Positions 1,026 to 23,862 of a stretch of 64,000 nt of DNA are shown here, in pieces (the first letter of the stretch is position 1; every line of letters starts with the position of its first letter). A program made the position numbers and the translations under genes. Source of the stretch: Patescibacteria group bacterium (lineage in GTDB: Bacteria > Patescibacteriota > Minisyncoccia > Moranbacterales > GWC2-37-73). The notes below the pieces were generated by a model, which was given only the letters and a program-made list of their open reading frames with translations, was not told the DNA's origin and made no database searches. The stretch lies in assembly GCA_022709545.1 (NCBI GenBank), contig JAKLIP010000002.1, positions 1 through 64,000 of the forward strand, read 5' to 3'.

Positions 1026-1616
1026 TTATTCAATAACCTTGTGCAGTTCTATGCTTCCAATATTCTGACGACCACGCCCAGAATAATACTCGCCCTCTAA
1101 TTTATCACCAGAACAGGATAAATAAGTTGTTCCATAATGGATTTGCATGCTATCAACAGAACTTGATTTGGGATTATTCTGATACTGATAATGAAGCGAG
1201 GCATTATTTGAAACCCCTACCATTATTGAAGCAACCGTACTATTTGAACAAGAATTATCGGTCTTTAGTAAAATTTCAATTTCTGTCCAGGTTTGAGATA
1301 TTTTAACATCAGTATTTACGAAATCTTGAGAATTGAAAGATGATTGTAGCTTCCCCCTCCATTTTCCTGAAATATCCGGGGTTTTAATTATCCCCAATTT
1401 TTTCAAAAAGGGTTTTCGCCAAATAAATTTGTCAAATACGCTATATAGTAGACCGTATATTCCCATAACTGATGGCGCGCTTGCCCACCAAGGAAAAGAA
1501 ATTTGCAGTTTTGCAAGAATTGCGCTCATTCCCCAGGTTAAAACAATAGCTATACAAGCAAGATAGAAAGGGATTATTTTTCTTTCATTGGTATTCGTTG
1601 AATAGGGGTGCATCAT
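1026..1616 (-). CDS. cap15: Cap15-like CBASS effector (2 TM + beta-barrel cyclic-nucleotide receptor)
   Basis: The 196-residue protein has two predicted membrane helices (about 14-37 and 42-64), then a strand-rich domain that opens with DISGKWRG (81-88) and continues with repeated I-x-I-x-Q/W-T patterns. This is the layout of the S_2TMbeta/Cap15 family, in which a beta-barrel senses a cyclic nucleotide and the membrane helices oligomerise to disrupt the inner membrane of infected cells. Its start overlaps the stop of the CD-NTase gene by 4 bp (ATGA), so the two are translationally coupled, as expected of a signal-maker/effector pair. The call comes from sequence pattern and context, without a profile search. 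Confidence 0.8.
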   Translation of the reverse strand: MMHPYSTNTNERKIIPFYLACIAIVLTWGMSAILAKLQISFPWWASAPSVMGIYGLLYSVFDKFIWRKPFLKKLGIIKTPDISGKWRGKLQSSFNSQDFVNTDVKISQTWTEIEILLKTDNSCSNSTVASIMVGVSNNASLHYQYQNNPKSSSVDSMQIHYGTTYLSCSGDKLEGEYYSGRGRQNIGSIELHKVIE

Positions 1617-2548: not shown

Positions 2549-3496
2549 TTATTTCCTCTTTCTTTCCCTGCTGTCCAAATATCTTTTCAGTGCATCTTTG
2601 GAGGTAAGCCAATTGCGTCCTTCCTTGTGCGCCTCCAGTTTTCCACTGCGAGCCAGTTGATTCAGATATTTTTCCGTAAATTTTGTATCCTTGGCTAATT
2701 CTGCCAACGGGATAAATTCCTCTTTGCCTTTCTTGCTTGGCATTAGTATTTTCAGATAAATATCCAATGTTCTCTCCACCGCCCGAGCAATGAAGTTCAC
2801 AAACGGAACATAGTCGCCCTTATCTGCCAGAGACAGCGACCGATAATATCTTTTGCGATCATTCTTTAAGACAATTACCAGGGGAAATCCTGACTGCATC
2901 AGAACAATATTCATCGTCAAGCGTGAAGTCCGGCCGTTGCCGTCAAAAAAGGGATGGATATAGACCAACTTGTGGTGCAAAATACTGGCTAATTCCACTG
3001 GGTGCATTTTTTTCTTACTGTTATCCCCGACCCAACTGATAAGATTTTGCATCAGTCTCGGAATCTCTAAAGCTTCCGGCGGTTTGTGATCCGCTCCACC
3101 AATAATCACCCCGCTGTTTCGGTATTTTCCCGCCCATTCTTTATCAATATCTTGCATCACGATTTGATTCAGCGATCTAATAAACCTTTCCGACACGGTA
3201 TTGTTCTTTCCGCTTTCCACCAGTGAATACAAATAGTCCAAAGCCTCCTTGTGGCTTTTAGCCTCAAGATGATCCTTTAGTGGCTTGCCTTTGATGGTTA
3301 TGCCCTCATTGATGACCAGATAGGTTTCTTTGAGAGTCAAACTGTTACCCTCAATCGCATTGGAATTATAGGTCATTTCCACTTCAAATTGTTCCCTGAG
3401 TTTTTTAACTGCAGAGGATGGCAGTGGACGAAAAGAATTCAGCAACTTCAATTTGTCATCAATTCTTTTTTGGATTTTTTTGTCTAAATATTGCAT
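2549..3496 (-). CDS. Fic-domain AMP-transferase-like protein, first gene of the CBASS operon
   Basis: The 315-residue protein contains the full Fic motif HPFFDGNGRTSR at 181-192, so it should be able to move AMP (or a related nucleotide moiety) from ATP to a hydroxyl side chain. An N-terminal SNAIEGN segment (45-51) fits the class II inhibitory helix, whose glutamate blocks the active site. The C-terminal 60 residues look like a winged-helix or HTH unit. It lies 12 bp ahead of the CD-NTase gene, behind the only clear promoter of the cluster, and therefore leads the operon. It might regulate or guard the CBASS module, or act as an extra toxin; both are inference. Confidence 0.88.
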   Translation of the reverse strand: MQYLDKKIQKRIDDKLKLLNSFRPLPSSAVKKLREQFEVEMTYNSNAIEGNSLTLKETYLVINEGITIKGKPLKDHLEAKSHKEALDYLYSLVESGKNNTVSERFIRSLNQIVMQDIDKEWAGKYRNSGVIIGGADHKPPEALEIPRLMQNLISWVGDNSKKKMHPVELASILHHKLVYIHPFFDGNGRTSRLTMNIVLMQSGFPLVIVLKNDRKRYYRSLSLADKGDYVPFVNFIARAVERTLDIYLKILMPSKKGKEEFIPLAELAKDTKFTEKYLNQLARSGKLEAHKEGRNWLTSKDALKRYLDSRERKRK

Positions 3497-7795: not shown

Positions 7796-7900
7796 TTATC
7801 TGACTGTTTGGCAATAGCGCTCATACATTGTCCAAATGAATGTTGCGAATAATGCCGATATAAACAGGGACGATAACAGCGACTGGGTTTTGGTCTTCAT
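7796..7900 (-). CDS. 34-residue single-pass membrane microprotein coupled to the terminase gene
   Basis: Its ATG overlaps the terminase stop codon (CTATGA), the classic sign of translational coupling. The peptide starts MKTKTQSLLSSLFISALFAT and is one membrane helix (about residues 7-27) with a positive N-terminus and a short polar tail ending QTVR. In phages, small single-helix proteins near terminase genes can be holin- or antiholin-like, but that is only a guess here. Confidence 0.5.
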   Translation of the reverse strand: MKTKTQSLLSSLFISALFATFIWTMYERYCQTVR

Positions 7901-9435
7901 AGAATGTATTTCCTTGCCCGAAACTCTTCCAACTCTTTGAGTGTGGGAAAGGATTGTTTAGGTTTAATATGTTCTGGCTTCTTTACTCCTGCTTCAATGA
8001 CCTTGCCTCGTAACTGTTCCTCTTTTTTGAGCTGGGCTTCGAACTCTTCAAAAGTTGGACTTTCGGAAATGAGCACTCCAGCACTCGCCCGTTCATCTTG
8101 GATGGCGAACATACTGCTCATCCCAAGACTTATGACATGGTCAGAAAATCCTCCCGACTTATGATCCAATCTCCAACCATACGATTTTTCTTCGGCGTTC
8201 AGACTCAGTAGTTCATCTTCCAGCAATTTGCAAGGGAAAATTCTGATGAGAGAATTATGAAACAAGTAGAAGAGGTTCTGGGATAATTTCTGAATAGTGC
8301 TTGATGTGAATGTAAATTCTTCTATTCTCACTCCCATCCTTTTTAATTTCTGGGCGCTGTTTTTCATCTGCCAGATATCCAAAATGGCTTTTCTGATGTT
8401 GAAATTTTGATTCGCCCAAAGGATATCCGACTCAATGTCGCTGATGAGCACCGGGTTCTTTTTGGTGCCTTGATAAGTTTTGATGAAGTCGAGATAAATA
8501 AGGTTATCATTTTTATCTTTGTGGCAAATCGTCAAAACTGTTCTGTCGCGGATTAATCCCAAATCCACTGCCAGATAATACTTTATATTTTCCCTGCCGT
8601 TAAGCTGGGGCTTCAAAGCATAATCTTTACAGGCTTCCACTTCCGATTTTTGAATGAACGCATTTTCACCCTGCACCCACTTGTTCTCATGGAGTCGTTG
8701 ATACACTCCAGCTGGCAGACGCATCCGTTGCTGTTCCAGATATTCCTCATTCACCCAGCTCGCCAAATTATTTTCACTCCAGAAAAAATACATTTTGGAG
8801 TCTCGCTTTTGCATTCCTGTCTGATAGATGTCATAGAGCAAACTGGTCTGGTCTGTTCCGGCGTAAGTTACCACAAAAGTCAGCGGTTCTTTTCGGACTG
8901 GACTTTGCGTTAGCGCGTCATACAGGTCACGATTGGGTTGATTCCAAAGTTCATCGAAAATCACGCAGGAGGGATTCAAACCATGGGCAGTTGGGGCGTC
9001 AGCGGAGAGAACGCGATAGACACTGTTTGTGCTGGGAACCACAATTTCATCTTTGTAGATTCTCACTGAATCAAGCAAAATGGGATTTCTTTCAATGGCT
9101 CGCTTGGTCATCTGGAAAATAATTTTGGCCTGATCCTTGTCGCCTGCCGCTCCGTAAACTTCGCCGTTCATTTCAGTAAACAAGGAATACAAAGCCACTG
9201 CCGATGCCATCGTGGATTTTCCATTCTTTTTTGGCACGCCAATCAAAACCAGGTTGTATTTCCTGAAACCATTTGTATTTTTGGTCTGGAAAATATCTCT
9301 GAGGATTTTCTTTTGAAATTCCTCCAGTTTAATCGGCTTACCATCTTCTAGGATGTATTGTTCCTGAAGAAAGACAACAATGTCTTTTTTGTATTCAATC
9401 AGTTTTTCTCTGGTGATGGGTTTAATCTTCGTCAT
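7897..9435 (-). CDS. Phage terminase large subunit
   Basis: The 512-residue protein has the ATPase half (Walker A GVPKKNGKST at 66-75, Walker B CVIFDEL with D161-E162) and a C-terminal RNase-H-like nuclease half starting near YYLAVDLG (about 287), whose aspartate is the expected metal ligand. This enzyme packages phage DNA and cuts it. Length and motif order fit an intact subunit. The terminase small subunit lies immediately upstream (14-bp overlap). No portal, capsid or tail gene is present nearby, so the block may be a satellite or a degraded prophage. Confidence 0.88.
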   Translation of the reverse strand: MTKIKPITREKLIEYKKDIVVFLQEQYILEDGKPIKLEEFQKKILRDIFQTKNTNGFRKYNLVLIGVPKKNGKSTMASAVALYSLFTEMNGEVYGAAGDKDQAKIIFQMTKRAIERNPILLDSVRIYKDEIVVPSTNSVYRVLSADAPTAHGLNPSCVIFDELWNQPNRDLYDALTQSPVRKEPLTFVVTYAGTDQTSLLYDIYQTGMQKRDSKMYFFWSENNLASWVNEEYLEQQRMRLPAGVYQRLHENKWVQGENAFIQKSEVEACKDYALKPQLNGRENIKYYLAVDLGLIRDRTVLTICHKDKNDNLIYLDFIKTYQGTKKNPVLISDIESDILWANQNFNIRKAILDIWQMKNSAQKLKRMGVRIEEFTFTSSTIQKLSQNLFYLFHNSLIRIFPCKLLEDELLSLNAEEKSYGWRLDHKSGGFSDHVISLGMSSMFAIQDERASAGVLISESPTFEEFEAQLKKEEQLRGKVIEAGVKKPEHIKPKQSFPTLKELEEFRARKYIL

Positions 9436-9961
9436 ATTCCAGTTCGCTTAATTCTTTAGCCAAACTATATGTCTGTGCCACATTCAGTCCGATTCTGCTT
9501 CTAGCTTCCGGAGTTAATCCTAAAGCACTGCAGAAGTGGATTATGAGGCGCTCATAAACTGTCCTGGTTTTCAGGATTGGCTGAAAATCAAACTGCTTGT
9601 TTTCCAATAGGAACGGAGAGGCTTTGGCTAACCACTTATCCGTGATATATAGGAAGCCATAGTTTCTCACGAGCCTTTTGACCAAAATGCGGTCTATTTC
9701 CTGAATCTGGGGCAAAGCCATAATTTGGTCCTCCAATTGGCTCTCAAATTCCAGCACTGCTCGGCAAAATTTGGCTTCAGGCGCGTAATGCTCGCACTCG
9801 TGGCTAAAGATACAGCTTTGGCAGTTTGGGGCTAAACCGGACTTCAAAAAGGCGAATCCGCCCGACTTTAAGACCGATTCTCTTTTGAGATTCTGGGTAA
9901 CCTTTTTTATCCCCTCTTCTGTTTTCGGTCCCATCAATACTGGTTTTTTACTTTCAGCCAT
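9422..9961 (-). CDS. Terminase small subunit, P27-like
   Basis: A 179-residue protein. Its C-terminal third (LIIHFCSALGLTPEARSRIG) matches the LTPxxRxRIG ending typical of P27-family small terminase subunits, which recognise the packaging site and feed DNA to the large subunit. The N-terminal half has a Cys/His cluster (CQSCIFSHECEHYAPEAKFC), a possible metal site not usual in this family. The gene overlaps the start of the large subunit by 14 bp. The call rests on the C-terminal motif plus position. Confidence 0.65.
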   Translation of the reverse strand: MAESKKPVLMGPKTEEGIKKVTQNLKRESVLKSGGFAFLKSGLAPNCQSCIFSHECEHYAPEAKFCRAVLEFESQLEDQIMALPQIQEIDRILVKRLVRNYGFLYITDKWLAKASPFLLENKQFDFQPILKTRTVYERLIIHFCSALGLTPEARSRIGLNVAQTYSLAKELSELEYDED

Positions 9962-9997
9962 AAATTTTTACTGTTTTTCCCTTTATATTTCTCCTGC

Positions 9998-10636
9998 CTA
10001 TTCCTTGGCGAAGCCAAGATACATCGCACACGCCTTCGCTAACGCTTCTCCTCTGGTCTTTTGTTTAGCCCATTCCAATGCTTCTTCCACCAGTTCAGCG
10101 TCCTTTTTACTCAGTGAAAATGTCATTAAGACTGGCAATGCTTCCTCTTGTTCTTTGGCATCACTTTCCAGTTTTTTAATCAAATTCTCGTCAATTTTTA
10201 TCGCTTCCAATTTTTCTTGAATTTCTGAATAGTTGAAGCCCAATCTCACAGCCAATTCTTCCAGACCATATACTCCTGAATCGTGGATGCTTTTGATAGT
10301 GTTGTGTAGTATCTGTTCGTTGAATGTGCCGCGTTTCCTGTTCCAAGCGATGGAAAGAATTTTGTGTTCAATCCCATCCTTGGGTTCGTAAAATACCACT
10401 GGCACTTCCGTGTATCCAAGCTCCTGCATCACCTTGAGCCGGTGGTGTCCGTCAATCAGCGTATTGTCCTTGGAATTTACCACCAAGGCTTGTCCGACTA
10501 ATCCATATTCGTCAATATCTGTTTTCAGTGCCTCGTAAAGTTCTTCGGAAAACTCATTGGCATTTTCAAAAGGGCTGGGCTTAATTTCCCCAATGGGAAC
10601 TAGTTTTACTTCTGAATAGATTTTTTGGTTTGTCAT
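9998..10636 (-). CDS. ParB/Srx-fold domain protein
   Basis: A 212-residue protein. Residues 10-85 form a ParB-like nuclease/CTPase fold: a KPSPFENANEF-type box, QALVVNS, then IDGHHRLKVMQELGYTEVPV, whose DGHHR is the hallmark motif. A helical region follows. True ParB proteins have a second HTH and a ParA partner; here there is no ParA gene, so this is more likely one of the phage-type ParB-fold proteins found near terminase and methylase genes. It lies 20 bp after the D12-type methylase gene. Confidence 0.75.
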   Translation of the reverse strand: MTNQKIYSEVKLVPIGEIKPSPFENANEFSEELYEALKTDIDEYGLVGQALVVNSKDNTLIDGHHRLKVMQELGYTEVPVVFYEPKDGIEHKILSIAWNRKRGTFNEQILHNTIKSIHDSGVYGLEELAVRLGFNYSEIQEKLEAIKIDENLIKKLESDAKEQEEALPVLMTFSLSKKDAELVEEALEWAKQKTRGEALAKACAMYLGFAKE

Positions 10637-10656
10637 TTTGGCATTTGGTTAATTGA

Positions 10657-11721
10657 TTACTTTTTTGCGATTACGATAAATTCTTCGCATTCCCTGGGAC
10701 TCTTGCCTGATAAATTGTTAATGCTCCAGCTGAAATTTTCCAGCATCAGCAGTTTCGCATTTGGTCGGTGTTTTTTGACCATCTCCAGAAACTTATCCGA
10801 ATGAAGCGCGCCCGGCTCGTCCACCTTGGCTCCATAGGTCAAGAGCCATAGATCAATGTGCTGGCAGGCTTCAAAGAATTTATCAAACCACTCTTCTACC
10901 TCTTTGCTGTTGAACGCACTATTGCTTTTAGGGATTTTCTTGCCCAGCAGAATTTCTGAAAAAGCATCATACATTGAATAACTCGTCGATTCGAAATATG
11001 GCGCGTCCGCCATCATTACAGCCTCATTTTCAAATTCCCTTGTCTTGGGCAGGAATTCAAGCACATCTTCGTTGTATGCCACATTGACCTTGTTATTATT
11101 TTTCACCCCGGCATTTATTCCCCTCACCAATTTCTTGAGAATGATCAGCGGATGTTGGACACTTTTCAGCAGTTTATTGGCTCTCGAATCTGATGTCTTC
11201 ACCGCTTCTGCCACCGCCAATTCCATCCCCACAGCCTTAACATTCCTGATATCCGCGGTGCATCCGAATTTGCCGTAAGGCAGGGTATGGAGAATATAAT
11301 AGATTATTAAGTGGGAAAGTAGATATTTTCGGTAGCTGTCCGGAAGCTGTCGAATATTCTCCGTAGCTCTGTCTAGAAATTCACAAATTTCATCAGTAAA
11401 AAACTTGTTGTAATTTTTTCTGACGAAACCATCGTTTGTATTTTCTCTGAAGAGATAATAAATATCATTCAGCGATATTTTCGCGGTGTTATTTTCCAAT
11501 AATGCTTTCTGGGCAACATATGAAACCAGAGACCAATCATTAGAGATTATTTTCAATCCCAGCCTATGTTTAGCGAATAGCTCAAAAGAACAACCGCCGG
11601 CAAACGGACTGATTAGCACTTTGTGCTTTTCTGGCTTTACAAAACTCGCCAAGGTGGAACTTTGCCTAATTTTGCTTCCCAGATAGGGAAAGTTTGCCGA
11701 CTGAAACTTATACTTTTTCAT
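10657..11721 (-). CDS. D12-class DNA adenine methylase-like protein with altered catalytic motif
   Basis: The 354-residue protein has the family's FPYLGSK start (12-18), a cofactor-binding SPFAGGCSFEL segment and an SND acidic loop, all as in Dam/D12 N6-adenine methyltransferases. The catalytic DPPY is replaced by DAPY (in MMADAPYFEST). Alanine at the second place is unusual, so activity is uncertain. No restriction gene is present. In phage-like blocks such enzymes protect element DNA or regulate packaging. It overlaps the small upstream RHH-like gene by 14 bp. Confidence 0.75.
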   Translation of the reverse strand: MKKYKFQSANFPYLGSKIRQSSTLASFVKPEKHKVLISPFAGGCSFELFAKHRLGLKIISNDWSLVSYVAQKALLENNTAKISLNDIYYLFRENTNDGFVRKNYNKFFTDEICEFLDRATENIRQLPDSYRKYLLSHLIIYYILHTLPYGKFGCTADIRNVKAVGMELAVAEAVKTSDSRANKLLKSVQHPLIILKKLVRGINAGVKNNNKVNVAYNEDVLEFLPKTREFENEAVMMADAPYFESTSYSMYDAFSEILLGKKIPKSNSAFNSKEVEEWFDKFFEACQHIDLWLLTYGAKVDEPGALHSDKFLEMVKKHRPNAKLLMLENFSWSINNLSGKSPRECEEFIVIAKK

Positions 11722-11938
11722 CTTTTTCTATTTCCTTGATTAGATAGCTTACTGCCAGAGCTATAATTTTGGACTTTCCCGCGATGCCATATTTTTCAGA
11801 AAGCAGGACTTCCAGCTTATATAACTTTTCCTGATAGAATTGCGGAAACAGATAGAACACTTGCCGACTTCCCCTCATATCGGAGTGATCGGAAAGAACC
11901 TGATTCAGCTCTTCAATTTTCTTTTTAGTGTTGGTCAT
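11708..11938 (-). CDS. Small probable DNA-binding protein (RHH-like)
   Basis: A 76-residue protein that I do not recognise with certainty. The C-terminal half (LYKLEVLLSEKYGIAGKSKI and a helix of 12) has the strand-helix-helix rhythm of ribbon-helix-helix regulators. It is directly upstream of the methylase gene and overlaps it, so it could be a regulator of this block. Its stop-side overlap suggests translational coupling. Confidence 0.5.
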   Translation of the reverse strand: MTNTKKKIEELNQVLSDHSDMRGSRQVFYLFPQFYQEKLYKLEVLLSEKYGIAGKSKIIALAVSYLIKEIEKDEKV

Positions 11939-11985
11939 ATTTTTGATGATTATTGATTACTTTTCCCCTTATTAAAGCCTTTTTT

Positions 11986-12000
11986 GTCCAGCTGCTGGAC
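11986..12000. repeat. Perfect palindrome between the primase and the RHH-like gene
   Basis: GTCCAGC-T-GCTGGAC, 7-bp arms with a 1-bp centre. It lies in the 88-bp gap in front of the RHH-like gene and could be an operator. It is not followed by a T-run in the minus direction, so it is not a terminator of the primase gene. Confidence 0.4.
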
Positions 12001-12026
12001 ATTGCAAGACATTGTTTAACTCCTAC

Positions 12027-14570
12027 CTAAAAATCTATTTCCTCAGCAATGTCATATTCATCGCTGTATTTTTCCGCTTCAACTACACCTCCTTCCTTTT
12101 CAAGCAAGCTTTTTTGCTCCGACAAGCTTGCGTTTTCATCGTTTTTACCGTTGCTATCGTTATTTAAAACGCCATCTTGCAACGATGCATCGATAGAAAC
12201 GACTGATTTGCCAACTCGTTGGAAGCGTATTATCCTTTGCCTGTTTTCTTCCTTGCGGTAAACTTTTATCCCAGCTTCTTCCAAGTTAGTTTTCAGACGG
12301 TTGATTCTTTTACTAAGATTATTGGCACTTTTAGGAAATCCTTTTTCTTTGATGTCAATTTGCAGCTTTCCAGCTATAATTTTCAATTCTTCCAGTAGTT
12401 CCGACGCGGTTCCTTCCCATTCATCCCTGTATTCCATAAAAGTGAGGATGGTTATAGCTTCGAAATTCTCCAAAAGCACTTCGTTATTCTGGTTGGCTAT
12501 ATTATTGCGGTAAGCTTCCAGAAATTCTGTCTCCTTGTGCCCTAAAGCTCTGGCAATAGCCGAACCCCAATGGGCAAAATCAGCCATCCTGGTCAAATTT
12601 TGAGCACTCATCCCTGGTTTAACTTTCATTGTTTCAGAGACTATGTCAAAAATGCTTCCTAATAGTTCCGGCAACATTTGCTCAAAATTATCAATAATAT
12701 CCTGCTCCAATTTTCGGTCTTCTGGCGGAATTCTGTCCAGTTCAAACAACAAACTCCTTTCCAATAAATCCGGCTTGGATGTAACCAAATTTATTCCATT
12801 TATTCCCAAGCACCTCCGGAAAGTATGTATGACATCGTTGTCATCGCTGTAAAGTTCTCTTTTGGAAAAGGCCGCGCCTGTCACTGCCTTGCAAAGCAAA
12901 TCTGAAGTCTGATCGGACAAAAAGGAAACATTATCGAAGAGAATACACCAATGATGAGACAGCTTTAAAACAAAACTGTCTTCGCCTTGGGGAAAACTAG
13001 ATACCTCGATAAGCGATGGATCGACTAACTTTTTAATCAATTTGAATAGGGTGCTCTTAGCTGAACCTTGGGCACCATAAATATTGATAACCGGATGTGG
13101 AAAGCCGGGAATGAAACAGCTGATTATATAAACCAGAAGCAAAAGCTGTTGTCCATTATCCCTAATGTTTATGAATGGCAATAATAATTCAATGGCCACT
13201 CCCCTTACTGGCAAGGGATGCGCTTTCTGGTGGGAATATCGGCGAAACATTATCGGAGAATTATCCACAATTTCCCATCCGTCTTTGGTAATCTTTACTG
13301 CCTGCCATTTTTTATTGGAAAGATCATACCAAATAGCATCGTCTCTAATCGCCACCCGACATTCCAGCTTATATTCCGATCCGTTAAATATTGCCTCACC
13401 TTTAATAATATTAAGGGCATTGTTAATGGAATCGGAATTGGGAGCCTTTTTGTATTTATCCCAAAACTTCTTTCCCAGCCAATATTTGAAATTCTGATCC
13501 TTCAGATTTAATATCTCGTTATGTCCGGAAACCGGCAGACTGATATACGGACTTCTAGCGTCATCATGGAAAAGAACAATCCTCTTGTTTTCCTTCACTA
13601 ATTCAACAATAAGGTCGCTTTGGTTTTTTCTTTCATCCGTGTCGTCATCCTCAGCTTCTTCGGTTTCCATTTCAAACGGTTCAGCCAATCTGGTTAACTC
13701 TTTTTTCGTGCCGTTCAGCTTTACAAAATAATCGGTAATATCTCCTTTTTCACCCACTGCTTCAGGAAGACGAATTATTTTAACCTCCAGTCCGTCAATG
13801 GCCGATAGTTTTTTAGCCACCATTTCCGATCCGGCTCTCCCCTCGTCATCGTTGTCAAAAACTATATATGCTTCCTTAAGATGCTCAAATTCCTTTATCC
13901 ATTCCTTTTTGAAAGTTCCCGCACCGGCCGTGGAAGTTACTGCTATCAATCCTTTCGACTGAAGCAGGATGCAATCCAACTCACCTTCGCAAATAAATAC
14001 CCTACCTTTTTCTTTTCGCAGTAGTTCTATGCCAAATAAGCTGGAACTGGCATTGGGATAGAAAATATACTTATTTCCCTTACTCGAATCACTCGGGTCT
14101 TTCCTCAGTTTCAAATATATGTATTCGCCTGATTCGTTTTTAACCGGAATACTTATTCTGTTTCCATTTCGAGAAACCCACCAACCCAGTTTATATTCGT
14201 TAATCAGTTCGTTATTCAAACCGCGGTTATTCAAATATTTTCTAATCTCATCCGGCAGTCTGTCATGGCAAAAATCCACTAGGCTTGGATCAAACACCTT
14301 TTTAAGTTTTTGAATTTTCGGCTGCTTAACAACATCAACTATCCTATCGCCAAGATGTTTAGCAAGCGTTAGGAGGTTTCCCTCTGCCTGGCATTTCTTG
14401 CATTGGTATTGCCCAGTCTCGGCATTCATCCAAAGATGCGCTTCGTTTTCCGTACTGTCGCTATCGCAATCTCCAAAAATGCACTTCATTACCAGTTCAC
14501 CGTTTACTTCCCTGAATTCAATGTTTTTTTCTCGCAGATACTCTCGCGGCGAGATATTACCGTAGTTCAT
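12027..14570 (-). CDS. Phage/satellite-type primase-helicase
   Basis: I use the internal start MNYGNISPRE (14570, 847 aa), because the 26 residues before it show no family likeness. Domains in order: a zinc finger (CIFGDC, then CKKC, within residues 25-75), a TOPRIM domain (VFICEGELDC, then IVFDNDDEGRAG, about 185-265), and a helicase-like ATPase (Walker A GAQGSAKST and Walker B ILFDNV near 515-570). Such fused primase-helicases start replication of phages, satellites and plasmids. The C-terminal 120 residues hold a possible winged helix. It is the probable replication protein of the element. Confidence 0.82.
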   Translation of the reverse strand: MNYGNISPREYLREKNIEFREVNGELVMKCIFGDCDSDSTENEAHLWMNAETGQYQCKKCQAEGNLLTLAKHLGDRIVDVVKQPKIQKLKKVFDPSLVDFCHDRLPDEIRKYLNNRGLNNELINEYKLGWWVSRNGNRISIPVKNESGEYIYLKLRKDPSDSSKGNKYIFYPNASSSLFGIELLRKEKGRVFICEGELDCILLQSKGLIAVTSTAGAGTFKKEWIKEFEHLKEAYIVFDNDDEGRAGSEMVAKKLSAIDGLEVKIIRLPEAVGEKGDITDYFVKLNGTKKELTRLAEPFEMETEEAEDDDTDERKNQSDLIVELVKENKRIVLFHDDARSPYISLPVSGHNEILNLKDQNFKYWLGKKFWDKYKKAPNSDSINNALNIIKGEAIFNGSEYKLECRVAIRDDAIWYDLSNKKWQAVKITKDGWEIVDNSPIMFRRYSHQKAHPLPVRGVAIELLLPFINIRDNGQQLLLLVYIISCFIPGFPHPVINIYGAQGSAKSTLFKLIKKLVDPSLIEVSSFPQGEDSFVLKLSHHWCILFDNVSFLSDQTSDLLCKAVTGAAFSKRELYSDDNDVIHTFRRCLGINGINLVTSKPDLLERSLLFELDRIPPEDRKLEQDIIDNFEQMLPELLGSIFDIVSETMKVKPGMSAQNLTRMADFAHWGSAIARALGHKETEFLEAYRNNIANQNNEVLLENFEAITILTFMEYRDEWEGTASELLEELKIIAGKLQIDIKEKGFPKSANNLSKRINRLKTNLEEAGIKVYRKEENRQRIIRFQRVGKSVVSIDASLQDGVLNNDSNGKNDENASLSEQKSLLEKEGGVVEAEKYSDEYDIAEEIDF

Positions 14571-14669
14571 ATAATTCCGTCGTGACTCCAGTTGACCTCG
14601 GATGGACGGAATAGTTCGCATCCAAGGCCAGCAGGAGCCACCGAACAAGTTAGTTAAAATTTAATAAAC

Positions 14670-14812
14670 AAAAAGCCCGCAAACGCCTACCACTAAAAGT
14701 GATAATTGTTTGCGGACTTTTTCTCAGACCTAATATTGAGAAAGACTTCCTACTTCGACCATCTGAATACAGCGAAACTCCAGACGAAGTAAGTCCAAAT
14801 ATTTTATTTTCT
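14670..14812 (-). ncRNA. Candidate small RNA of about 140 nt with own promoter and terminator
   Basis: A strong minus-strand promoter (see 14819-14846) is followed by an imperfect hairpin (GGACTTACTTC against GAAGTAGGAAGTC, with an inner TCTG/CAGA pairing) and a long terminator stem (AAAAAGTCCGCAAAC against GTTTGCGGGCTTTTT, 14670-14722). The open frame over this stretch has no ribosome binding site and no likeness to proteins, so a non-coding role is preferred. The primase gene begins 100 bp downstream; the RNA may regulate it or act in trans. Confidence 0.5.
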
Positions 14813-14818
14813 AATTGT

Positions 14819-14846
14819 ATTTTATCAGTTCTCATAGCCTTGTCAA
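14819..14846 (-). promoter_or_regulatory. Promoter of the candidate small RNA
   Basis: -35 TTGACA at 14841-14846, 16-bp spacer, -10 TAAAAT at 14819-14824. Among the best promoter matches in the accessory region. Confidence 0.6.
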
Positions 14847-14925
14847 TCCCTTTCTTAAAATTTTTTATCTGTTAAAATTAACTTATGGCTAAGCAGAAAA
14901 ATTCTGCCCAGCACACAAACTAACC

Positions 14926-15345
14926 TTAGAAAGCGTTGTCTTCCACAACCGCGCATTCTTCACTCATATGAGCGTTAACCACTCCTACTGATCCGGATTT
15001 CTCAAATCCGTTTTCACCCATTTCATAGCCTTCTGGTGCGACATAGTAAACCTGTATAAATTTACCAGCCACATTTTGCTTAAATGAATGAACTTTTACC
15101 TTCTTGCCTACCCAGTTCGCAGTTTCTTCTCCGAAAGCATCCACCAAGGCATTGATGCTGGTCTGGTTGATACCCAAAACCAATTCCACGCCATTAGCAG
15201 TTTTGATTTCAAAAATGTTCTGTGAGCCGAATTGAGTTTCCACAATCTTCCCTTCACTACCTATGGTGATTATGTCTCCTTCTTTGACATCTGTTCCTTT
15301 CTTGGCGAAAGGCATCCCCATAGTTTCCTTTTTCTGCAACTTCAT
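14926..15345 (-). CDS. Hypothetical OB-fold-like phage protein
   Basis: A 139-residue protein rich in short strands (EGDIITIGSEGKIVETQFGS, then IFEIKTANGVELVLGI and KVKVHSFKQNVAGKFIQVYYV). This resembles OB-fold or SSB-like proteins of phage replication blocks, but I cannot name a family. The outer start overlaps the stop of the recombinase gene (ATGA) with GGGTGAG ahead. An inner start, MGMPFAKK (15318), has AAGGAA 5 bp before it and is equally possible. Position beside the primase suggests a role in element DNA metabolism. Confidence 0.6.
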   Translation of the reverse strand: MKLQKKETMGMPFAKKGTDVKEGDIITIGSEGKIVETQFGSQNIFEIKTANGVELVLGINQTSINALVDAFGEETANWVGKKVKVHSFKQNVAGKFIQVYYVAPEGYEMGENGFEKSGSVGVVNAHMSEECAVVEDNAF

Positions 15346-16307
15346 GTAGTTCTCACCCCCTCTCCAGATGAATCTGTCTTATCTCTAAAATCCAGATTAT
15401 TCATAACTCTGTCGTGATTCCTTCTTAGCTCTTCAAAATTCGAATTGCCTAAATAGTAAGTCAGCGTGGTTCTGGCGGAGGAATGGTTTAAAAAATTTTG
15501 CACGACTCCGAGCGAAACGTTGTTTTTATACATGTGCGTCGCGGCTGATTTGCGTAAAATATGTGGTCTGAGATTCTTACTAAGCTTCAGTTTTCGTCCG
15601 ATCATTCGAAGACTCCTTTCAACATCGTTGGTTTGCCATGGTTTGGGATTGGGAGTTGCAGTCACGAATAAATTTGGATGATTATCTTTCCTCATAGCCA
15701 AATATTTGTTAATCGCTTCAATTGAGGAATCGGAAAACAAAATGGTGTGAGGTTTGTTATTTTTCGTCCGAATGTGAGCAATCCTGTCTTTGAAATTAAT
15801 ATCCGATATCTTCAAGCCCAAAACTTCTTTCACGCGACAGCCGGTTGAAAATGAAACTTCAAAATATGCCTTCAGTCGACACCCAGTAATTGTTTTCTCA
15901 TTTGGGTAGTCAAGCACCGTGGACAACTCCGACTCATTCAATGTCTCAACCTCCTTAATTGGAACTCGGAACTTGGAAATCTGAGCATAATCCATCACCT
16001 TTGCGCCTTCTTTTTCCTTCACAAATTTCAGAAGCAAACGGAGTAATGTCAGGTGCTGATTTTTATAACTGGGACTGAGGTTGTCTTTCTTCTGACTTGA
16101 TTGATTCAAATACTGCTTATATTTAGTAATCATCCGAGCATCAATCTTCTTTATGCTTATATTGCCAAAGAATTTAATTATCCGGGGACGGATTTCCTTG
16201 TATTTTTCGATTGAACTTTTGGACAGCGAACAATTCGCCTCAATATCCTCAAAGAAGCGGTCAAAACTGTCAGAAAGGTTTAAGTTGTCGGAAAATATGG
16301 AAATCAT
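15342..16307 (-). CDS. Tyrosine recombinase/integrase (second of three)
   Basis: The 321-residue protein has a core-binding domain (10-120) and a catalytic domain with STGCRVKEV (catalytic Arg), RPHILRKSAATH (H-x-x-R), LNHSSARTT (His, in place of the common LGH) and a YYLGN tyrosine. It should integrate or excise DNA. It lies with the primase/OB-fold genes and is the likely integrase of the phage-like block. Perfect direct repeats next to it were not found in the window. Confidence 0.85.
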   Translation of the reverse strand: MISIFSDNLNLSDSFDRFFEDIEANCSLSKSSIEKYKEIRPRIIKFFGNISIKKIDARMITKYKQYLNQSSQKKDNLSPSYKNQHLTLLRLLLKFVKEKEGAKVMDYAQISKFRVPIKEVETLNESELSTVLDYPNEKTITGCRLKAYFEVSFSTGCRVKEVLGLKISDINFKDRIAHIRTKNNKPHTILFSDSSIEAINKYLAMRKDNHPNLFVTATPNPKPWQTNDVERSLRMIGRKLKLSKNLRPHILRKSAATHMYKNNVSLGVVQNFLNHSSARTTLTYYLGNSNFEELRRNHDRVMNNLDFRDKTDSSGEGVRTT

Positions 16308-16386
16308 TTATTGGTTTTATATCTTATGCTCTTATTATCTCAACTTCATGCACCAAATAAATAACCTTTGCTCGTAAATCAAACGC

Positions 16387-16416
16387 AAAAAAACCGCTCT
16401 GATAAGCGATTCTTTT
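16387..16416 (-). terminator. Intrinsic terminator after the 16455-17405 gene
   Basis: Stem AATCGCT/AGCGGTT with a TATCAG loop followed by TTTTTTG on the minus strand, 40 bp beyond the stop of the hypothetical gene. The flanking gap 16308-16454 holds nothing else I recognise. Confidence 0.6.
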
Positions 16417-16454
16417 CTCGTAAATATTATTTTCAGACAGAAACTACTCGGAAA

Positions 16455-17405
16455 TCATCCCTTTGGAAAAAACTTAGCCTGCTCTTCCTTAAGCATTCCT
16501 TTTGGCACAATATTAATATCAATTTCCTGATTTATCCCAAAATTATCTCCATCTTTTTCCACAATTGTCTTTTGCCTATACACCCCCGCGACTCCCACTC
16601 TTTTAAATATCTTTGAGTTTATTGTGGTTGCTATCTGATGATCATGTAGAACCTTCGCGCCATATTTACTTTTATCGACAATCTCATGTAGCTTCTTGAT
16701 ATAATTATCGCCTGCTTGTTTTTTCTTGGCTAAAAATTTAACTTTATTGCGAAAGTCGTTATTAAAAACCAACCACAATGACTCGTCCCTAAGTCCCGGG
16801 TTTCTTGTGACGATTATGATGGAACTGATGTCTTTCAGTCCATCCTTTTCCAAAATTGAATCATTATTGCTTTTCTTAAAATCCATAACCGAATAACTGC
16901 CAGTTGATTCTGCTTTATCATCCAGTTTTCCCAAGAGATAATTATGAATTCTATTCGCGTAAGGCACGTAGCGCGCTATATCCAGATTGTCGCTCAATGT
17001 TGAATTTGAATATCCGGAATAAACCGAACTTATTTTATCCCAAGCTCCCCAAATTGAAGTTTCCGTTTCCTCTTTTATTTTTTTATCCAGCTCGGCCAAC
17101 TTCGGATGAGACTGAGAATAGAGCACTTTATCCGCGAGAGAAATATCATCAACCGTCTCTGATGATCCCGTCATGTCAAGGTATTCTTTTTTGGCAATCC
17201 TTGTTTCACTGTCAACTGTTTTCTCCAGACTATCTTTTTCGGCCAAAAGTGCCTCCTTGGATTTTTGTATTTCTGAAATAATTTCCTTAGATTTTTCATC
17301 AGCTAAAATGAATCTGATATAATCGGCCAACCCAATTAAAAAGGATTGGTTATCTTTTTGGGCTATGAAGCTATCGTAGTATTTTTGGAGTATATTTACT
17401 TTCAT
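16455..17405 (-). CDS. Hypothetical protein adjoining the direct repeat
   Basis: I start at MKVNILQKYY (17405, 316 aa). An outer ATG at 17423 would begin inside the 16-bp direct repeat. The first 80 residues are helical, and 40-100 are charged and probably coiled. The C-terminal half is strand-rich (DISSIIIVTRNPGLRDESLW and later IDINIVPKGML). No membrane segment and no known motif are visible. It has its own terminator. It is the first gene outside the 4.3-kb repeat-flanked unit, so it belongs either to the neighbouring phage-like element or to the old host flank. Confidence 0.55.
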   Translation of the reverse strand: MKVNILQKYYDSFIAQKDNQSFLIGLADYIRFILADEKSKEIISEIQKSKEALLAEKDSLEKTVDSETRIAKKEYLDMTGSSETVDDISLADKVLYSQSHPKLAELDKKIKEETETSIWGAWDKISSVYSGYSNSTLSDNLDIARYVPYANRIHNYLLGKLDDKAESTGSYSVMDFKKSNNDSILEKDGLKDISSIIIVTRNPGLRDESLWLVFNNDFRNKVKFLAKKKQAGDNYIKKLHEIVDKSKYGAKVLHDHQIATTINSKIFKRVGVAGVYRQKTIVEKDGDNFGINQEIDINIVPKGMLKEEQAKFFPKG

Positions 17406-17422
17406 ATAATCCAATTCTACCA

Positions 17423-17438
17423 CAAAATCTCCCTAGAA
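17423..17438. repeat. Probable attachment-site repeat, distal copy
   Basis: The 16-bp sequence CAAAATCTCCCTAGAA occurs here and again at 21705-21720, where it runs into the 3' end of the 16S rRNA gene. The integrase gene ends 9 bp to the right, the usual position of an integrase relative to its att site. Outside the 16 bp the two copies share TACCA one or two bases further left, with an indel. Confidence 0.72.
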
Positions 17439-18516: not shown

Positions 18517-18595
18517 ATATTTTTATTAAGGCAATGACACATTAGCTTCGTGGCACACGAAGTCAAGGAAAAGTTATCCACTGTTCTGAAAACAA

Positions 18596-18622
18596 AAATA
18601 AGGCCATTTATAGCCTTACTTT
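18596..18622 (-). terminator. Terminator of the ubiquitin-like operon
   Basis: On the minus strand, AAGGC-TATAAAT-GGCCTT followed by ATTTTTGTTTT, 20-45 bp after the stop of the DUF6527 gene. Confidence 0.6.
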
Positions 18623-18641: not shown

Positions 18642-18995
18642 TTACCACCAAATCCACCTCTTCTTTTTGTGATATTTTTTCTTACTTTGATTATCCATTT
18701 CTCTGCAACTCTCAATCTGTTTTTTTGTCCATTTATCAGCTTGCCTTATCTCATTATTAATTATCCAATAATGAGATTGGCACGGAAAACTCCAGTTACC
18801 TATCGACGGGTGCAACGAAACAGTTTTACCATCAAAAGTTAATTTCCAGTCTGTCGGAGAAAACGGCGTCACTACCTCACTTCCACAACCACAATAACAC
18901 CTATGAATTGCCGTAGCATATTCCATGGATATATAAATAACGCCATCCTCGATGTTTTCTGGGATGTTTTTTACAAACTTAGGAGTTAGTCTCAT
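18642..18995 (-). CDS. DUF6527 family protein of the ubiquitin-like system
   Basis: The 117-residue protein has the family signature in order: CYCGCG (C33, C35, C37), PSIGNW at 63-68 and PCQSHYW at 71-77, with C72 and H75 completing a likely metal site. DUF6527 genes are known mainly from operons with bacterial ubiquitin-like proteins and E1-like ThiF enzymes; their role is not settled. The start overlaps the end of the ThiF gene by 17 bp. The C-terminus is a lysine-rich tail ending RWIWW. Recognition is from memory of the family pattern. Confidence 0.8.
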   Translation of the reverse strand: MRLTPKFVKNIPENIEDGVIYISMEYATAIHRCYCGCGSEVVTPFSPTDWKLTFDGKTVSLHPSIGNWSFPCQSHYWIINNEIRQADKWTKKQIESCREMDNQSKKKYHKKKRWIWW

Positions 18996-20160
18996 CGTTG
19001 ATTATTTTATTAATGCTAATTTCATAACTTGAATTATATTCCTTTTCTTGGTCATAGTAAAATCCGAAATGCTTTTTCATCTTAATTACAGCCAACGAAG
19101 CGTTAAGCGCGTTAAGTTCGGCGATTTGGATATTTTGTGTGTAAGCATCATGTCCTCCGTCAGAGAAATCAATCCTTCGTCCAAGGTGATCATTTTTTTC
19201 AGGAGTAGCCATGGTAGTGCGGATACAGCCAATTAAAGCGCCGTCGATTGATTGAATTCCAATCCCTGTATCCACAAATGGTATTTTTTTCTCTATCAAT
19301 CTCTCAGCTATTTGCTTTTTAATTTTTCCTTCGTCAATGCAAATGAATACGAAATCCATTCCCGATATTTCTTCTAAATTAGAATCTGTCAGGTGGTATT
19401 CTCTAGAAAAAATTTTCTTGTGCATTTTGGAATACACCCCATGAAAATAATCAACCTTTTTGAGTCTTTCATCCAGCTTTTCCTTGGAAGCAGCACCCGG
19501 AGACCTAAATGCGTTATGCTGAAGAAAATCGTCGGCATCAAATAAATGGATTTCTCTTACTTCAGTCTTCGAAATAAAATCCAAGACGTAAGAACCAGTT
19601 CCGCCCAAACCGACAATCGCCACCCTTACGTCTTTGAGTTTCGCTGATATTAAACCAATGTCGGCACGTGTAGAATTTGTATCGATGTAGTGATGTACGG
19701 ATTCTTCATCGTCTGGCTCAATAGTTTTGAAAGTTATTGCGGTTACCGAAGTGTCAATATGCTTCGCCTGTGATGACAAAATTCTTTCGTAGGTGATTAT
19801 TTTTTGATAATAATCAGGATACTGTCCGGATGGAGGTTTACTGGAAAAGCTATGATTTGTAGTCAACCCATCAACAATAGGTTCGTTGTTACTTGCGTGT
19901 TGTATAGCGGTAATAACAGTTCCGTCATGGTTACATGGATGCTCGCCAATAAACCTCATAACATGGTCGCCCACAGGGTTGACCGTTTTATCTGAAGCCA
20001 GCTCTAACTTGGACACCAGCGTGCCGTAAGCAATCTCCTTTTGGGAATTCACATACGGCACATGATGTACCAGCAAATAACCACTCTTGACTTCAATTTC
20101 GTAGCCCTCGTCCTGAAGTTTTTTTAAGTCTGGGCTAAGACTTATTTGTTTGCGTAGCAT
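18979..20160 (-). CDS. E1-like ThiF adenylyltransferase with N-terminal DUF6791-like domain
   Basis: The 393-residue protein has an N-terminal domain (1-160; SGYLLVHHVPYVN and HSFSSKPP are typical of the DUF6791 region fused to ThiF enzymes), then a Rossmann E1 domain: GLGGTGS at 184-190, D208/D210, and N216/R219 for ATP binding. C312 in IGCIRTT is a possible catalytic cysteine. The structural CxxC zinc pairs of MoeB/ThiF are not visible. It should adenylate the C-terminus of a ubiquitin-like protein. Its start overlaps the ubiquitin-like gene by 26 bp. Whether the N-terminal domain acts as the E2 is unknown. Confidence 0.85.
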   Translation of the reverse strand: MLRKQISLSPDLKKLQDEGYEIEVKSGYLLVHHVPYVNSQKEIAYGTLVSKLELASDKTVNPVGDHVMRFIGEHPCNHDGTVITAIQHASNNEPIVDGLTTNHSFSSKPPSGQYPDYYQKIITYERILSSQAKHIDTSVTAITFKTIEPDDEESVHHYIDTNSTRADIGLISAKLKDVRVAIVGLGGTGSYVLDFISKTEVREIHLFDADDFLQHNAFRSPGAASKEKLDERLKKVDYFHGVYSKMHKKIFSREYHLTDSNLEEISGMDFVFICIDEGKIKKQIAERLIEKKIPFVDTGIGIQSIDGALIGCIRTTMATPEKNDHLGRRIDFSDGGHDAYTQNIQIAELNALNASLAVIKMKKHFGFYYDQEKEYNSSYEISINKIINDETNS

Positions 20161-20395
20161 TGAATATCATCTCATCCTTAACCTTTACGCTCTCTCCCTT
20201 TACCAAGGAGCCTTCCTTATTCTCATCTTTACCTCGAGAGTAAATAACCGTATACGCGATTGCAGCGTCTTCCGAGAAACTTCCGAAAGCAAGCGTAACC
20301 ACCTCCTCGAACGAAATTTCTTCTTTTTTATCCCATTCGTGTGGACGTGTGTTCACGATTATAGTCACCTTTTTATCCTTCTTTTCGTTTTCCAT
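20135..20395 (-). CDS. Ubiquitin-like protein (multiubiquitin family, single domain)
   Basis: The 86-residue protein starts KKVTIIVNTRPHEW and continues with EISFEEVVTLAFGSF, YTVIYSRG, GSLVKGESVKVKD and MIFNATQTNKS, the strand-helix-strand pattern and consensus of the prokaryotic multiubiquitin domain. Only one copy is present, whereas many relatives have several in tandem. It ends in TNKS without a terminal di-glycine, so conjugation may use another residue or the protein may work without it. It overlaps the E1-like gene by 26 bp, and the three genes form one tightly overlapping operon. Confidence 0.85.
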   Translation of the reverse strand: MENEKKDKKVTIIVNTRPHEWDKKEEISFEEVVTLAFGSFSEDAAIAYTVIYSRGKDENKEGSLVKGESVKVKDEMIFNATQTNKS

Positions 20396-20429: not shown

Positions 20430-20472
20430 CGACCGAGACCACTTCACAGGCAATCTCAGTCGCTCCTTTTTT
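20430..20472 (+). terminator. Plus-oriented terminator-like hairpin between two minus-strand genes
   Basis: GGGCGACCGAGA, loop, then TCTCAGTCGCTCC and TTTTTTA on the plus strand. No plus-strand gene precedes it. It may end antisense transcription, or fold as a processing stem in the minus transcript between the small SANT-like gene and the ubiquitin-like gene. Confidence 0.45.
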
Positions 20473-20677
20473 ATTTCTTGCTCCGATTATACGGAGACTG
20501 ATTTGTTGGTCTCAAACTGACATTCTCCTGACTGGCTCTAGATGCCACAGCGTCAGGCGTTCTGCCAAGCTTTAGTCCGATTACCCTTGTAGGGGTGTTT
20601 TGCTTTGCCAGCGATCTTAACTGAGAAACATCTTTCGATGTCCAAGCCTTCCCGCTGTTTTGATTGTACTTCGCCAT
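20471..20677 (-). CDS. SANT/Myb-like small DNA-binding protein
   Basis: A 68-residue basic protein. Residues AWTSKDVSQLRSLAKQNTPT followed by RVIGLKLGRTPDAVASRA form one Myb/SANT-type helix-turn-helix: the tryptophan begins helix 1 and the GRT..AV..RA segment is the recognition helix. Such small proteins are common in bacteria as stand-alone regulators. It lies between the LexA-like repressor and the ubiquitin-like operon and may regulate either (inference). Confidence 0.7.
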   Translation of the reverse strand: MAKYNQNSGKAWTSKDVSQLRSLAKQNTPTRVIGLKLGRTPDAVASRASQENVSLRPTNQSPYNRSKK

Positions 20678-20733: not shown

Positions 20734-21384
20734 TTAATTTCCACTTTTGAATACATCGATAACTTTTCCATTTATGATGAAGGTATCATCAGGCGTTAAA
20801 TAAATCGGCCGATGCTCGTTGTTGGTCGATTCCGGAAGCAATGCCATCATTTCATCATTAATTTTTTTGAATTTCTTAACCGTAGCCAGCCCATCAATCA
20901 CAACCAATAACTTGTCCCCATTCTTATAATCTTTATACTCTGAGTCTACAATGATAAAATCACCATCATCTATTTTTTTACTGTCTATCTGTGATAAATT
21001 CATACTCGTACCATGAACCTGAATAGCAAAGACATTTTTATTGCCAACTATCTTTTTCGAGACTTTTAGATGCCCCTGCACATATTCCTCGGCAAAAATA
21101 GTAGGCGCGCCAGCTGATGCTGAGCCAAGCACGGGAACATCCACGAAAAATTCATTCATTCGATCAATGAAATCTAACCCTCTCTTTTCGGAAGATTTTG
21201 TCAGATATCCTTTTTCCTCAAGCGATTTCAAATATGTGAAAATCGAGCCCTTGCTTTTTATCGCAAGACCAATCTTGTTGCATTCATCCAGCATTTCCTG
21301 AAATGTAGGCATGTAGCCATTTCTGGCTTTGAATTTTTTGATTACAGAAAGCACAACGCTTTCTTTTGATGAAAGTAGTTCCAT
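20734..21384 (-). CDS. LexA/S24-type repressor-protease of the element
   Basis: I start at MELLSSKESV (21384, 216 aa). An earlier in-frame start would overlap the promoter. The N-terminal winged helix (KFKARNGYMPTFQEMLDECN) is like that of LexA. The protease half has the scissile A-G (GSASAGAPT), the catalytic serine in HGTSMN and the catalytic lysine in ATVKKF, so self-cleavage on activation by RecA is expected. In an integrative element, such a repressor ties excision or gene expression to DNA damage. It could instead be a moved host LexA, but its place inside the repeat-flanked unit favours the element. Confidence 0.82.
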   Translation of the reverse strand: MELLSSKESVVLSVIKKFKARNGYMPTFQEMLDECNKIGLAIKSKGSIFTYLKSLEEKGYLTKSSEKRGLDFIDRMNEFFVDVPVLGSASAGAPTIFAEEYVQGHLKVSKKIVGNKNVFAIQVHGTSMNLSQIDSKKIDDGDFIIVDSEYKDYKNGDKLLVVIDGLATVKKFKKINDEMMALLPESTNNEHRPIYLTPDDTFIINGKVIDVFKSGN

Positions 21385-21418
21385 AATAATTTGTTCAGTT
21401 TTTCCAACTCCTACTGAA

Positions 21419-21446
21419 AGTATAGAATAACCAGCAGAAATGTCAA
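21419..21446 (-). promoter_or_regulatory. Promoter of the LexA-like gene
   Basis: -35 TTGACA at 21441-21446, 16-bp spacer, -10 TATACT at 21419-21424. A close AGGAGG is absent: AGGAG lies 27 bp before the chosen ATG, so the start is weakly supported by the ribosome binding site. Confidence 0.6.
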
Positions 21447-21468
21447 GAGCGGAGTAGACTGACCAACG

Positions 21469-21491
21469 CAAAAAACACCATTTAAGGTGTT
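21469..21491 (-). terminator. Terminator of the 16S rRNA transcript
   Basis: AACACC-TTAAAT-GGTGTT followed by TTTT on the minus strand, about 230 bp after the 3' end of 16S. The stretch 21492-21704 is a folded trailer (GGTAATCGAGAATACT can pair with AGTATGGTTATC) and contains no 23S, 5S or tRNA gene. Confidence 0.65.
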
Positions 21492-21704
21492 CTTGCTTGC
21501 AAAAAGTATATGTATCACAACCTATTGCGATTAGTCCTATAAGAGTTTACCGATGTGTGTACAAACACATCTACAGATTCTGTTAGCTCTGCTAGGCATT
21601 GCTGTTCTCTAATAAATTAGAGTCGACCAGCGGATGATAACCATACTCCACAACCGTTGATGATGACACCAACAGTCTTCACGTGTAGTATTCTCGATTA
21701 CCAT

Positions 21705-21717
21705 CAAAATCTCCCTA

Positions 21718-21720
<3 letters not shown>
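21705..21720. repeat. Probable attachment-site repeat at the 16S 3' end
   Basis: Second copy of CAAAATCTCCCTAGAA (see 17423-17438). On the minus strand it reads directly on from CACCTCCTT of the anti-Shine-Dalgarno region, so the rRNA gene stays intact. The 4.27 kb between the copies hold the integrase, the ubiquitin-like operon and the repressor. Confidence 0.72.
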
Positions 21721-23208
<1,488 letters not shown>

Positions 23209-23862
23209 AGAATAAAACCTTCCACCGAAGTGGAAAAAATTTTAAACGGTTTGCATCTTTATCTAAAGAAAAGATGCGAAAACTTATAGCTCAGATAAAC
23301 AACCAGACCTGCCGCGCGTAAGCGACAGGTTTTAAAGGACTAACCGCAATAAATTGCGATTAATCTCTCATTAAGTTTTCAAAATACTATCCATAACTGC
23401 AAATTTTTATAGAGAAATAAAATTATTTCTCTATAATGATTTGGGGTTATAAAATTTGGAGGCCGGGAGGGAGCGGTTTCGAGATTAAAACCGATTACCC
23501 TTATTTTTTTTGAAAGGAAGCTTCAAATAAACAGAAATCTCGAATATGCCCGACCACCAAATTATCTTAATCAAAGCTGAGCGGGGCAAGTTTTTAAAAA
23601 ACAAAAACTTGTCAGACTCCCCTAACTTAAAAACGTAATCAATTGAAACGAAAGGGGGTTTTCCTTCGATTCACTGGGACGCGCCTGATTTATCAGCCTT
23701 GAAAAAAATTTAAAATGAACAAAAAACACATCCTCACGCACATCTTGTTGATATGCATCGGGATGTATTTTTTCCACCCGAATTTTTAAAATATTTTTAC
23801 TGTTTTGCGGCGATGTTTTTTTAATAAATTAATTAAACACCTGCTTTTTTTATTGCTTGTCC
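23209..23862 (-). other. Long folded leader of the 16S rRNA transcript
   Basis: About 650 bp between promoter and 16S with no gene. Seen in it, in transcript order: an imperfect 15-bp stem (23549-23563 with 23453-23467) enclosing AATCTCGAA/TTCGAGATT (23478-23486 with 23536-23544), a perfect 28-nt palindrome (23408-23435) and an ACCTGTCGC/GCGGCAGGT hairpin near 23306-23335. These are probably RNase III-type processing or antitermination structures (inference). Confidence 0.6.

Follow-up and report, generated by a model that had tools for sequence, protein, structure and literature searches.

Three consecutive open reading frames (ORFs) on the minus strand of a contig assigned to Patescibacteria encode a ubiquitin-like protein (Ubl), a fused DUF6791-ThiF enzyme and a DUF6527 protein, and occupy positions 18642-20395 of the window, the stretch of 64,000 nucleotides that was analyzed (contig JAKLIP010000002.1, assembly GCA_022709545.1, positions 1 to 64,000). 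With moderate confidence, we read these genes as an autonomous unit for ubiquitin-like conjugation, related as a sister to the Bub pathway, that does without a JAB peptidase, is carried as mobile cargo and probably acts against phages. Among the features newly seen in this study are an overlap of fixed length, 26 nt, between the Ubl and E1 genes and a Ubl that invariably ends in serine. A more specific proposal is put forward tentatively, at less than even confidence: tagging may proceed via this C-terminal serine without a trimming peptidase, and one branch of the family may work without the conserved E2 cysteine, using another nucleophile such as S106.

Operon organization and protein families

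The Ubl (20135-20395, minus strand, as are all genes of the operon and its upstream region) is an 86-aa protein with a single beta-grasp domain of the Multi_ubiq family (PF14452, 6e-14; 52.4 bits against a Pfam cut-off of 24.5). Its C-terminus and stop codon share 26 nt of dual-coding sequence (20135-20160) with the start and N-terminus of the enzyme (18979-20160, 393 aa), in which a DUF6791 domain (19678-20133, residues 10-161; 1.1e-56, 191.5 bits against 25) is followed by a ThiF/E1 adenylation domain (18982-19644, residues 173-393; 54.8 bits against 28.1). The third gene, which overlaps the second by 17 nt, encodes a 117-aa DUF6527 protein with a CxCGC...CxSHY metal-binding pattern (18642-18995; 3.5e-25, 88.1 bits against 23.6). 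Searches with the Multiubiquitin, ThiF, DUF6527 and DUF6791 profiles thus all scored above cut-off, and the ORFs, overlaps and families named in a first-pass annotation of this DNA hold. That annotation had also described the operon as lacking a separate E2 or JAB gene; in agreement, neither was seen among the ORFs adjoining the operon, and a profile search of the whole genome gave zero matches to Prok-E2_E (PF14462). Its term "minimal version" is apt as regards compactness but not as regards one-off status, the family being widespread and already noted in 2006 (see below).

Directly 3' of the DUF6527 gene lies a terminator-like hairpin (18595-18622, minus strand, 12 pairs with a T run); terminator-like sites in the operon region exceed chance (6 found versus 2.5 expected). 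A weak promoter-like site, TTGAGA-18-TATAAT (20486-20515, minus strand, 11/12), is located approximately 90 nt upstream of the Ubl start, in a region where such sites occur at chance level. Further upstream on the same strand, a gene for a LexA-like S24 repressor of the SOS type (20734-21471; Pfam S24 2.5e-22), with a terminator-like site downstream of it, is the probable controller of the operon. Between this gene and the Ubl, a 68-aa ORF (20471-20677, minus strand) gave no family matches, and a pattern search found no counterpart of it beside other operons.

The DUF6791-ThiF enzyme

Over its full length, the enzyme is a member of the NCBIfam family PRK06153.1-4 (NF004805; 544 bits, cut-off 352), which is named only "hypothetical protein". 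An AlphaFold model built from 79 sequences (pLDDT 89.6) found its best fold match in the PDB in the E1 half of Citrobacter BubCD, followed by UBA5, ThiF, MoeB and MccB. The match to BubCD concerns the E1 half only, because the N-terminal part of BubCD is a JAB domain; a reading of BubCD as an E2-E1 fusion was considered and rejected on the basis of the JAB-E1 protein alignment. Across 102 sequences, the glycines of the GxGGTG motif (G184, G186, G187 and G189), R219, K235 and D276 are invariant, D208, D210 and N216 are nearly so, and the E1 adenylation site is intact. A catalytic role for C312 in the ThiF domain, as put forward in the first-pass annotation, was rejected because the position is not conserved; homologues mostly have I, T, A, Q, L or V there.

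The earlier suggestion that the N-terminal domain of the ThiF protein carries the missing transfer step fared better, since DUF6791 resembles the BubB-type E2. The modeled domain consists of a helix (residues 3-17), a four-strand meander (20-71), a loop bearing P75-C76 and a long helix (117-135), an order of elements that we take to be that of the E2/UBC fold, with C76 presumably at the position of the Asn of the E2 HPN motif. When the DUF6791 profile was compared with seven Bub-type E2 sequences, the two ran in register over 124 columns with a score of 25.5, compared to a maximum of 20.4 in 150 column shuffles, 9.9 for the reversed profile and 13.8 for a JAB profile. In this alignment, S106 falls on the invariant Ser of BubB W-S-R-H. 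As a single pair, however, the two profiles reach a probability of only 14%, and no similarity to a eukaryotic E2 profile was found, a comparison built on few sequences in which the Bub-type E2 fails likewise; for these reasons the identification of DUF6791 as a BubB-like E2 domain is graded as probable. No JAB match was found in the enzyme with Pfam, and comparison with the Bub JAB profile stayed at background. With DUF6791 in the role of the E2, the E2 would be fused rather than missing. H66, P75 and S106 are invariant in the 102 sequences, while C76 is kept in 94 (His in 7, Arg in 1), which means that not every member can use a Cys-thioester step.

Relationship to Bub and other systems

One of the closest known systems is Bub (Citrobacter BubA, BubB and BubCD; PDB 9ea4-9eav), which shares with the window operon a Multi_ubiq Ubl, a ThiF E1 and DUF6527. 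In Bub, the E1 is fused to a JAB domain and the E2 belongs to the Prok-E2_E family, whereas the window operon matches neither family and has DUF6791 in their place. Judging from gene content, the window operon is a sister of the Bub pathway that differs in two enzymes, the E2 and the JAB. Bub itself also occurs in the same phylum: a small genome (G201, locus L102) contains an operon in which Ubl and DUF6527 genes accompany those for a Prok-E2_E protein and a JAB-ThiF fusion. Alignment of the fusion protein with BubCD, almost from end to end (4.9e-40), and of the E2 with BubB identifies it as a Bub operon. DUF6527 is likewise present in Bub-like operons on plasmids of Pseudanabaena, Methylocystis, Enterobacter and Synechocystis.

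Bil (BilABCD) has a Ubl and an E1, and the BilA structure matches the profile of the window Ubl. The E2 and JAB of Bil are separate proteins, and such genes are absent from the window operon. CBASS Cap2 and 6A-MBL also combine an E2-like part and an E1 in one protein and give weak E1-domain matches, but the window enzyme scores 20 bits against NF058523 (cut-off 320) and its operon has no cyclase or MBL partner. The multi-ubiquitin protein ZDHYS365 (PDB 9cd2) belongs to the same Ubl family and has a tail, TQTDKS, similar to that of the window Ubl, though with three beta-grasp domains rather than one.

Operon type 6e, as described by Iyer, Burroughs and Aravind (2006; PMC1779556), includes a subset in which the E1 has a "domain X" replacing JAB. 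The window cassette appears to match this subset, sharing one to three ubiquitin-like domains, a non-JAB N-terminus on the E1 and a metal-binding protein. Two points differ: domain X was thought to be possibly JAB-like in action, whereas the present evidence points to an E2-like domain, and the metal pattern is given as C-x3-C-x(35-38)-H-x2-C, whereas DUF6527 in the window ends in C-x2-H. No mention of the serine tail or the fixed overlap was found in the parts of PMC1779556 consulted.

The C-terminus of the Ubl and the 26-nt junction

The Ubl of the window ends in FNATQTNKS-COOH, which bears out the earlier remark that its tail has no di-glycine. In all 90 loci with a complete Ubl gene, the terminal residue is Ser and the Ubl and E1 genes overlap by the same length, 26 nt; the E1 start codon is ATG in 89 of them. 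Most members follow the tail consensus F-[ND]-[VA]-T-x-T-[DN]-[KQR]-S. The "ends in S" filter hid no other tails, as the unfiltered list contained the same ORF at every locus except for two cut off by contig ends. The serine end is also kept in ten divergent plasmid relatives (31-43% identity), in three of which the annotated E1 start lies 15 nt further upstream while the Ubl stop is unmoved. Most Ubl homologues have one of three sizes, 86-97, about 150-175 or 218-278 aa. Unlike the Ubl-E1 junction, the one between E1 and DUF6527 is not fixed, and the two genes may be separated by a gap or overlap extensively (lengths approximate, as first-ATG starts were used). In an alphaproteobacterial branch (L121-L125 and L127), Pro-His replaces Pro-Cys in DUF6791 and the Ubl tails end in [GS]-[EQ]-S; at L123-L125 the E1 start is annotated 15 nt further upstream.

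Because the two genes share these nucleotides, base variation can be read in both frames. Entropy per base averages 0.55 within the overlap, compared to 1.10 and 1.01 in the flanks. The overlap position that varies most, with an entropy of 1.64 that equals the value for third codon positions of the flanking sequence, is the wobble base of the terminal Ser codon and at the same time base 2 of E1 codon 8; residue 8 of the E1 is accordingly variable (His, Arg, Leu or Pro). That the wobble base of the Ser codon is the freest shows that selection acts on the serine as a residue of the Ubl and not on the E1. Most simply read, the encoded C-terminus is the working end and trimming is unnecessary. Since it is the serine that is under selection, the tag probably emerges in its final form, and an untrimmed end agrees with the lack of a JAB peptidase.

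The DUF6527 protein

Four cysteines of the DUF6527 protein singled out in the first-pass annotation (C33, C35, C37 and C72) are invariant in 72 sequences, as are H31 and H75, with the spacing C33-x3-C37-x34-C72-x2-H75. The structure model has a pLDDT of 91.7, and a fold search with it against the PDB gave zero matches. In approximately 380 genomes, DUF6527 was found at five places, four of them within ubiquitin-like operons of the window or Bub type.

Distribution of the cassette

Relatives of the enzyme were found on 115 plasmid records, usually beside genes annotated as "multiubiquitin" and "DUF6527", and at least 534 stretches of the genome collection encode one. The best 80 of these come from Bacteroidota, Pseudomonadota, Cyanobacteriota, Acidobacteriota, Planctomycetota, Bacillota, Nitrospirota, Chloroflexota, an archaeal MAG and others. 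A homologous operon is present on a plasmid of Runella slithyformis (L005). Viral contigs yielded five relatives by alignment scan and zero by single-protein scan, and phage records yielded zero. One 92,608-bp contig seemingly appears under two organisms that are not related, Pontibacter mangrovi and Amaricoccus solimangrovi (L029 and L033), a duplicate deposit that is probably due to cross-contamination.

Within its own phylum, the cassette is rare. Among approximately 380 sampled genomes of about 0.5-1.3 Mb, taken here to be Patescibacteria, it was present only in the window genome and in one other (G026), which has it twice, in both cases downstream of a LexA-like gene. A quick tree separates the copy of the window from those of G026, which would be expected if they had been acquired independently. 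The two LexA-Ubl-E1-DUF6527 units of G026 (L116 and L117) are 78% identical in DNA and have different defense surroundings.

Regulation and a probable link to defense

Among 70 upstream neighbors, PADLOC matched CapH 10 times, CapP 7 times, IetS 6 times and WYL 5 times; these are raw counts, and they amount to strong hints and not to enrichment. CapH/CapP and CapW, the latter of the WYL type, respond to DNA damage and control immune operons, Bub included (PMC13373217). At three loci from one Bacteroidota clade (L028, L037 and L038), a dCTP-deaminase-type defense gene (651-686 aa) lies between the E1 and DUF6527 genes, and the two of these genes that were tested both match PADLOC dCTPase at 1e-122 or better. 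The G026 copies adjoin a Ppl-like locus and a type II restriction-modification locus. Taken as a group, the CapH/CapP, WYL, LexA-like, IetS and dCTP deaminase neighbors give strong hints of a DNA-damage-gated defense. The association with defense genes proposed earlier is thus upheld, and it is these neighbors on which the argument for an anti-phage function is built.

The same neighborhood admits another reading, in which the operon conjugates proteins as a general stress or plasmid-maintenance system. Bub operons are controlled by DNA damage and have not been shown to protect against phages (PMC13373217), and CapH/CapP-like pairs near multiubiquitin genes have been read as toxin-antitoxin loci (PMC4963859). 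Against this, a dCTP deaminase within the operon and adjacent IetS, CBASS, restriction-modification and Ppl-like genes are the company of a defense system, and we consider stress or maintenance a somewhat unlikely but serious competitor to anti-phage defense.

The mobile element and its contig

Judging from gene content, the leftmost 21.5 kb form a prophage-like or satellite-like element, with three tyrosine recombinases, a terminase, a ParB-like protein, a primase, a CBASS pair and a LOOT RNA. The prophage-like genes (7897-17423) encode a terminase large subunit, a ParB-like protein, a methyltransferase and a primase, and no capsid or tail gene was recognized among the genes tested in this interval; the element is perhaps a satellite. 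The CBASS operon reported earlier in the same element is confirmed by its cyclase (CD-NTase, 1613-2536, minus strand, PADLOC 6e-107) and 2TM effector (1026-1616, minus strand, 1.7e-73), a pair that lies approximately 16 kb from the Ubl operon. Beside it is a Fic-family gene (2549-3496, minus strand) with a PADLOC SoFic match, and a LOOT RNA (Rfam RF03000, 6110-6236, minus strand, 87.8 bits) adjoins a tyrosine recombinase.

At 21500-23210, the element borders the single 16S gene of the genome on its 3' side, where G+C drops from about 0.40 to 0.33, and a repeat search found no convincing direct repeats flanking it. The junction possibly reflects insertion beside the 16S gene or an assembly misjoin. 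Given the G+C step, the 23S gene on a separate contig (C1) and a contamination of 9.6% in the assembly, the contig may be misjoined and the host is uncertain. The same three facts could mean that the operon is decayed or misplaced cargo of a chimeric contig or dead prophage, which we regard as unlikely: all three ORFs are intact and every invariant motif is present, so the operon is not decayed, whatever its host.

Proposed mechanism and other roles for the enzyme

In the conjugation unit that we favor, the Ubl would be translated with its final tail, fixed by the 26-nt overlap with the E1 start, so that JAB processing would be unneeded, and the overlap may also couple translation of tag and enzyme. 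The ThiF domain would adenylate the C-terminal serine of the Ubl, and DUF6791, as a fused BubB-type E2-like domain, would transfer the Ubl to its target, via C76 in most members or via the invariant S106/H66 region. DUF6527 would be a zinc-type accessory common to Bub operons and is probably a factor for target or product recognition. The cassette would ride as mobile cargo under DNA-damage-type repressors, with expression released upon DNA damage, and would most likely serve anti-phage defense.

It is also conceivable that the E1 modifies the Ubl itself in the manner of MccB, yielding a nucleotide- or small-molecule-capped product with DUF6791 and DUF6527 as tailoring parts. The sequence and fold matches include MccB and PaaA, which are E1-like but do not conjugate proteins, the Ubl resembles MccA in not ending in glycine, and C76 is not universal. 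However, the E2 and JAB of the sister Bub operons point to protein conjugation and its reversal, and the Ubl, with one to three complete beta-grasp domains, is not a short peptide, which leaves self-modification with a small share of our confidence. A sulfur-carrier or other metabolic system of the ThiF/ThiS type is very improbable despite the matches to ThiF, MoeB and MoaD-type folds, as the Gly-Gly tail for a thiocarboxylate is absent, no thiamine or molybdopterin genes were seen among the neighbors examined, and the loci lie on mobile elements beside defense regulators.

Implications

Read as a conjugation unit, the operon would represent a compact bacterial form of ubiquitin-like tagging that could be rebuilt from three genes, and a tag born in finished form would be a possible explanation for the lacking JAB peptidase. 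The analysis also proposes a role for DUF6791, a domain of unknown function. A tail ending in K-S predicts that trypsin would leave a single-serine remnant on target lysines, a signature for mass spectrometry. If the proposal is true, the glycine end, long held to be a hallmark of ubiquitin-like modifiers, would be dispensable in a widespread family.
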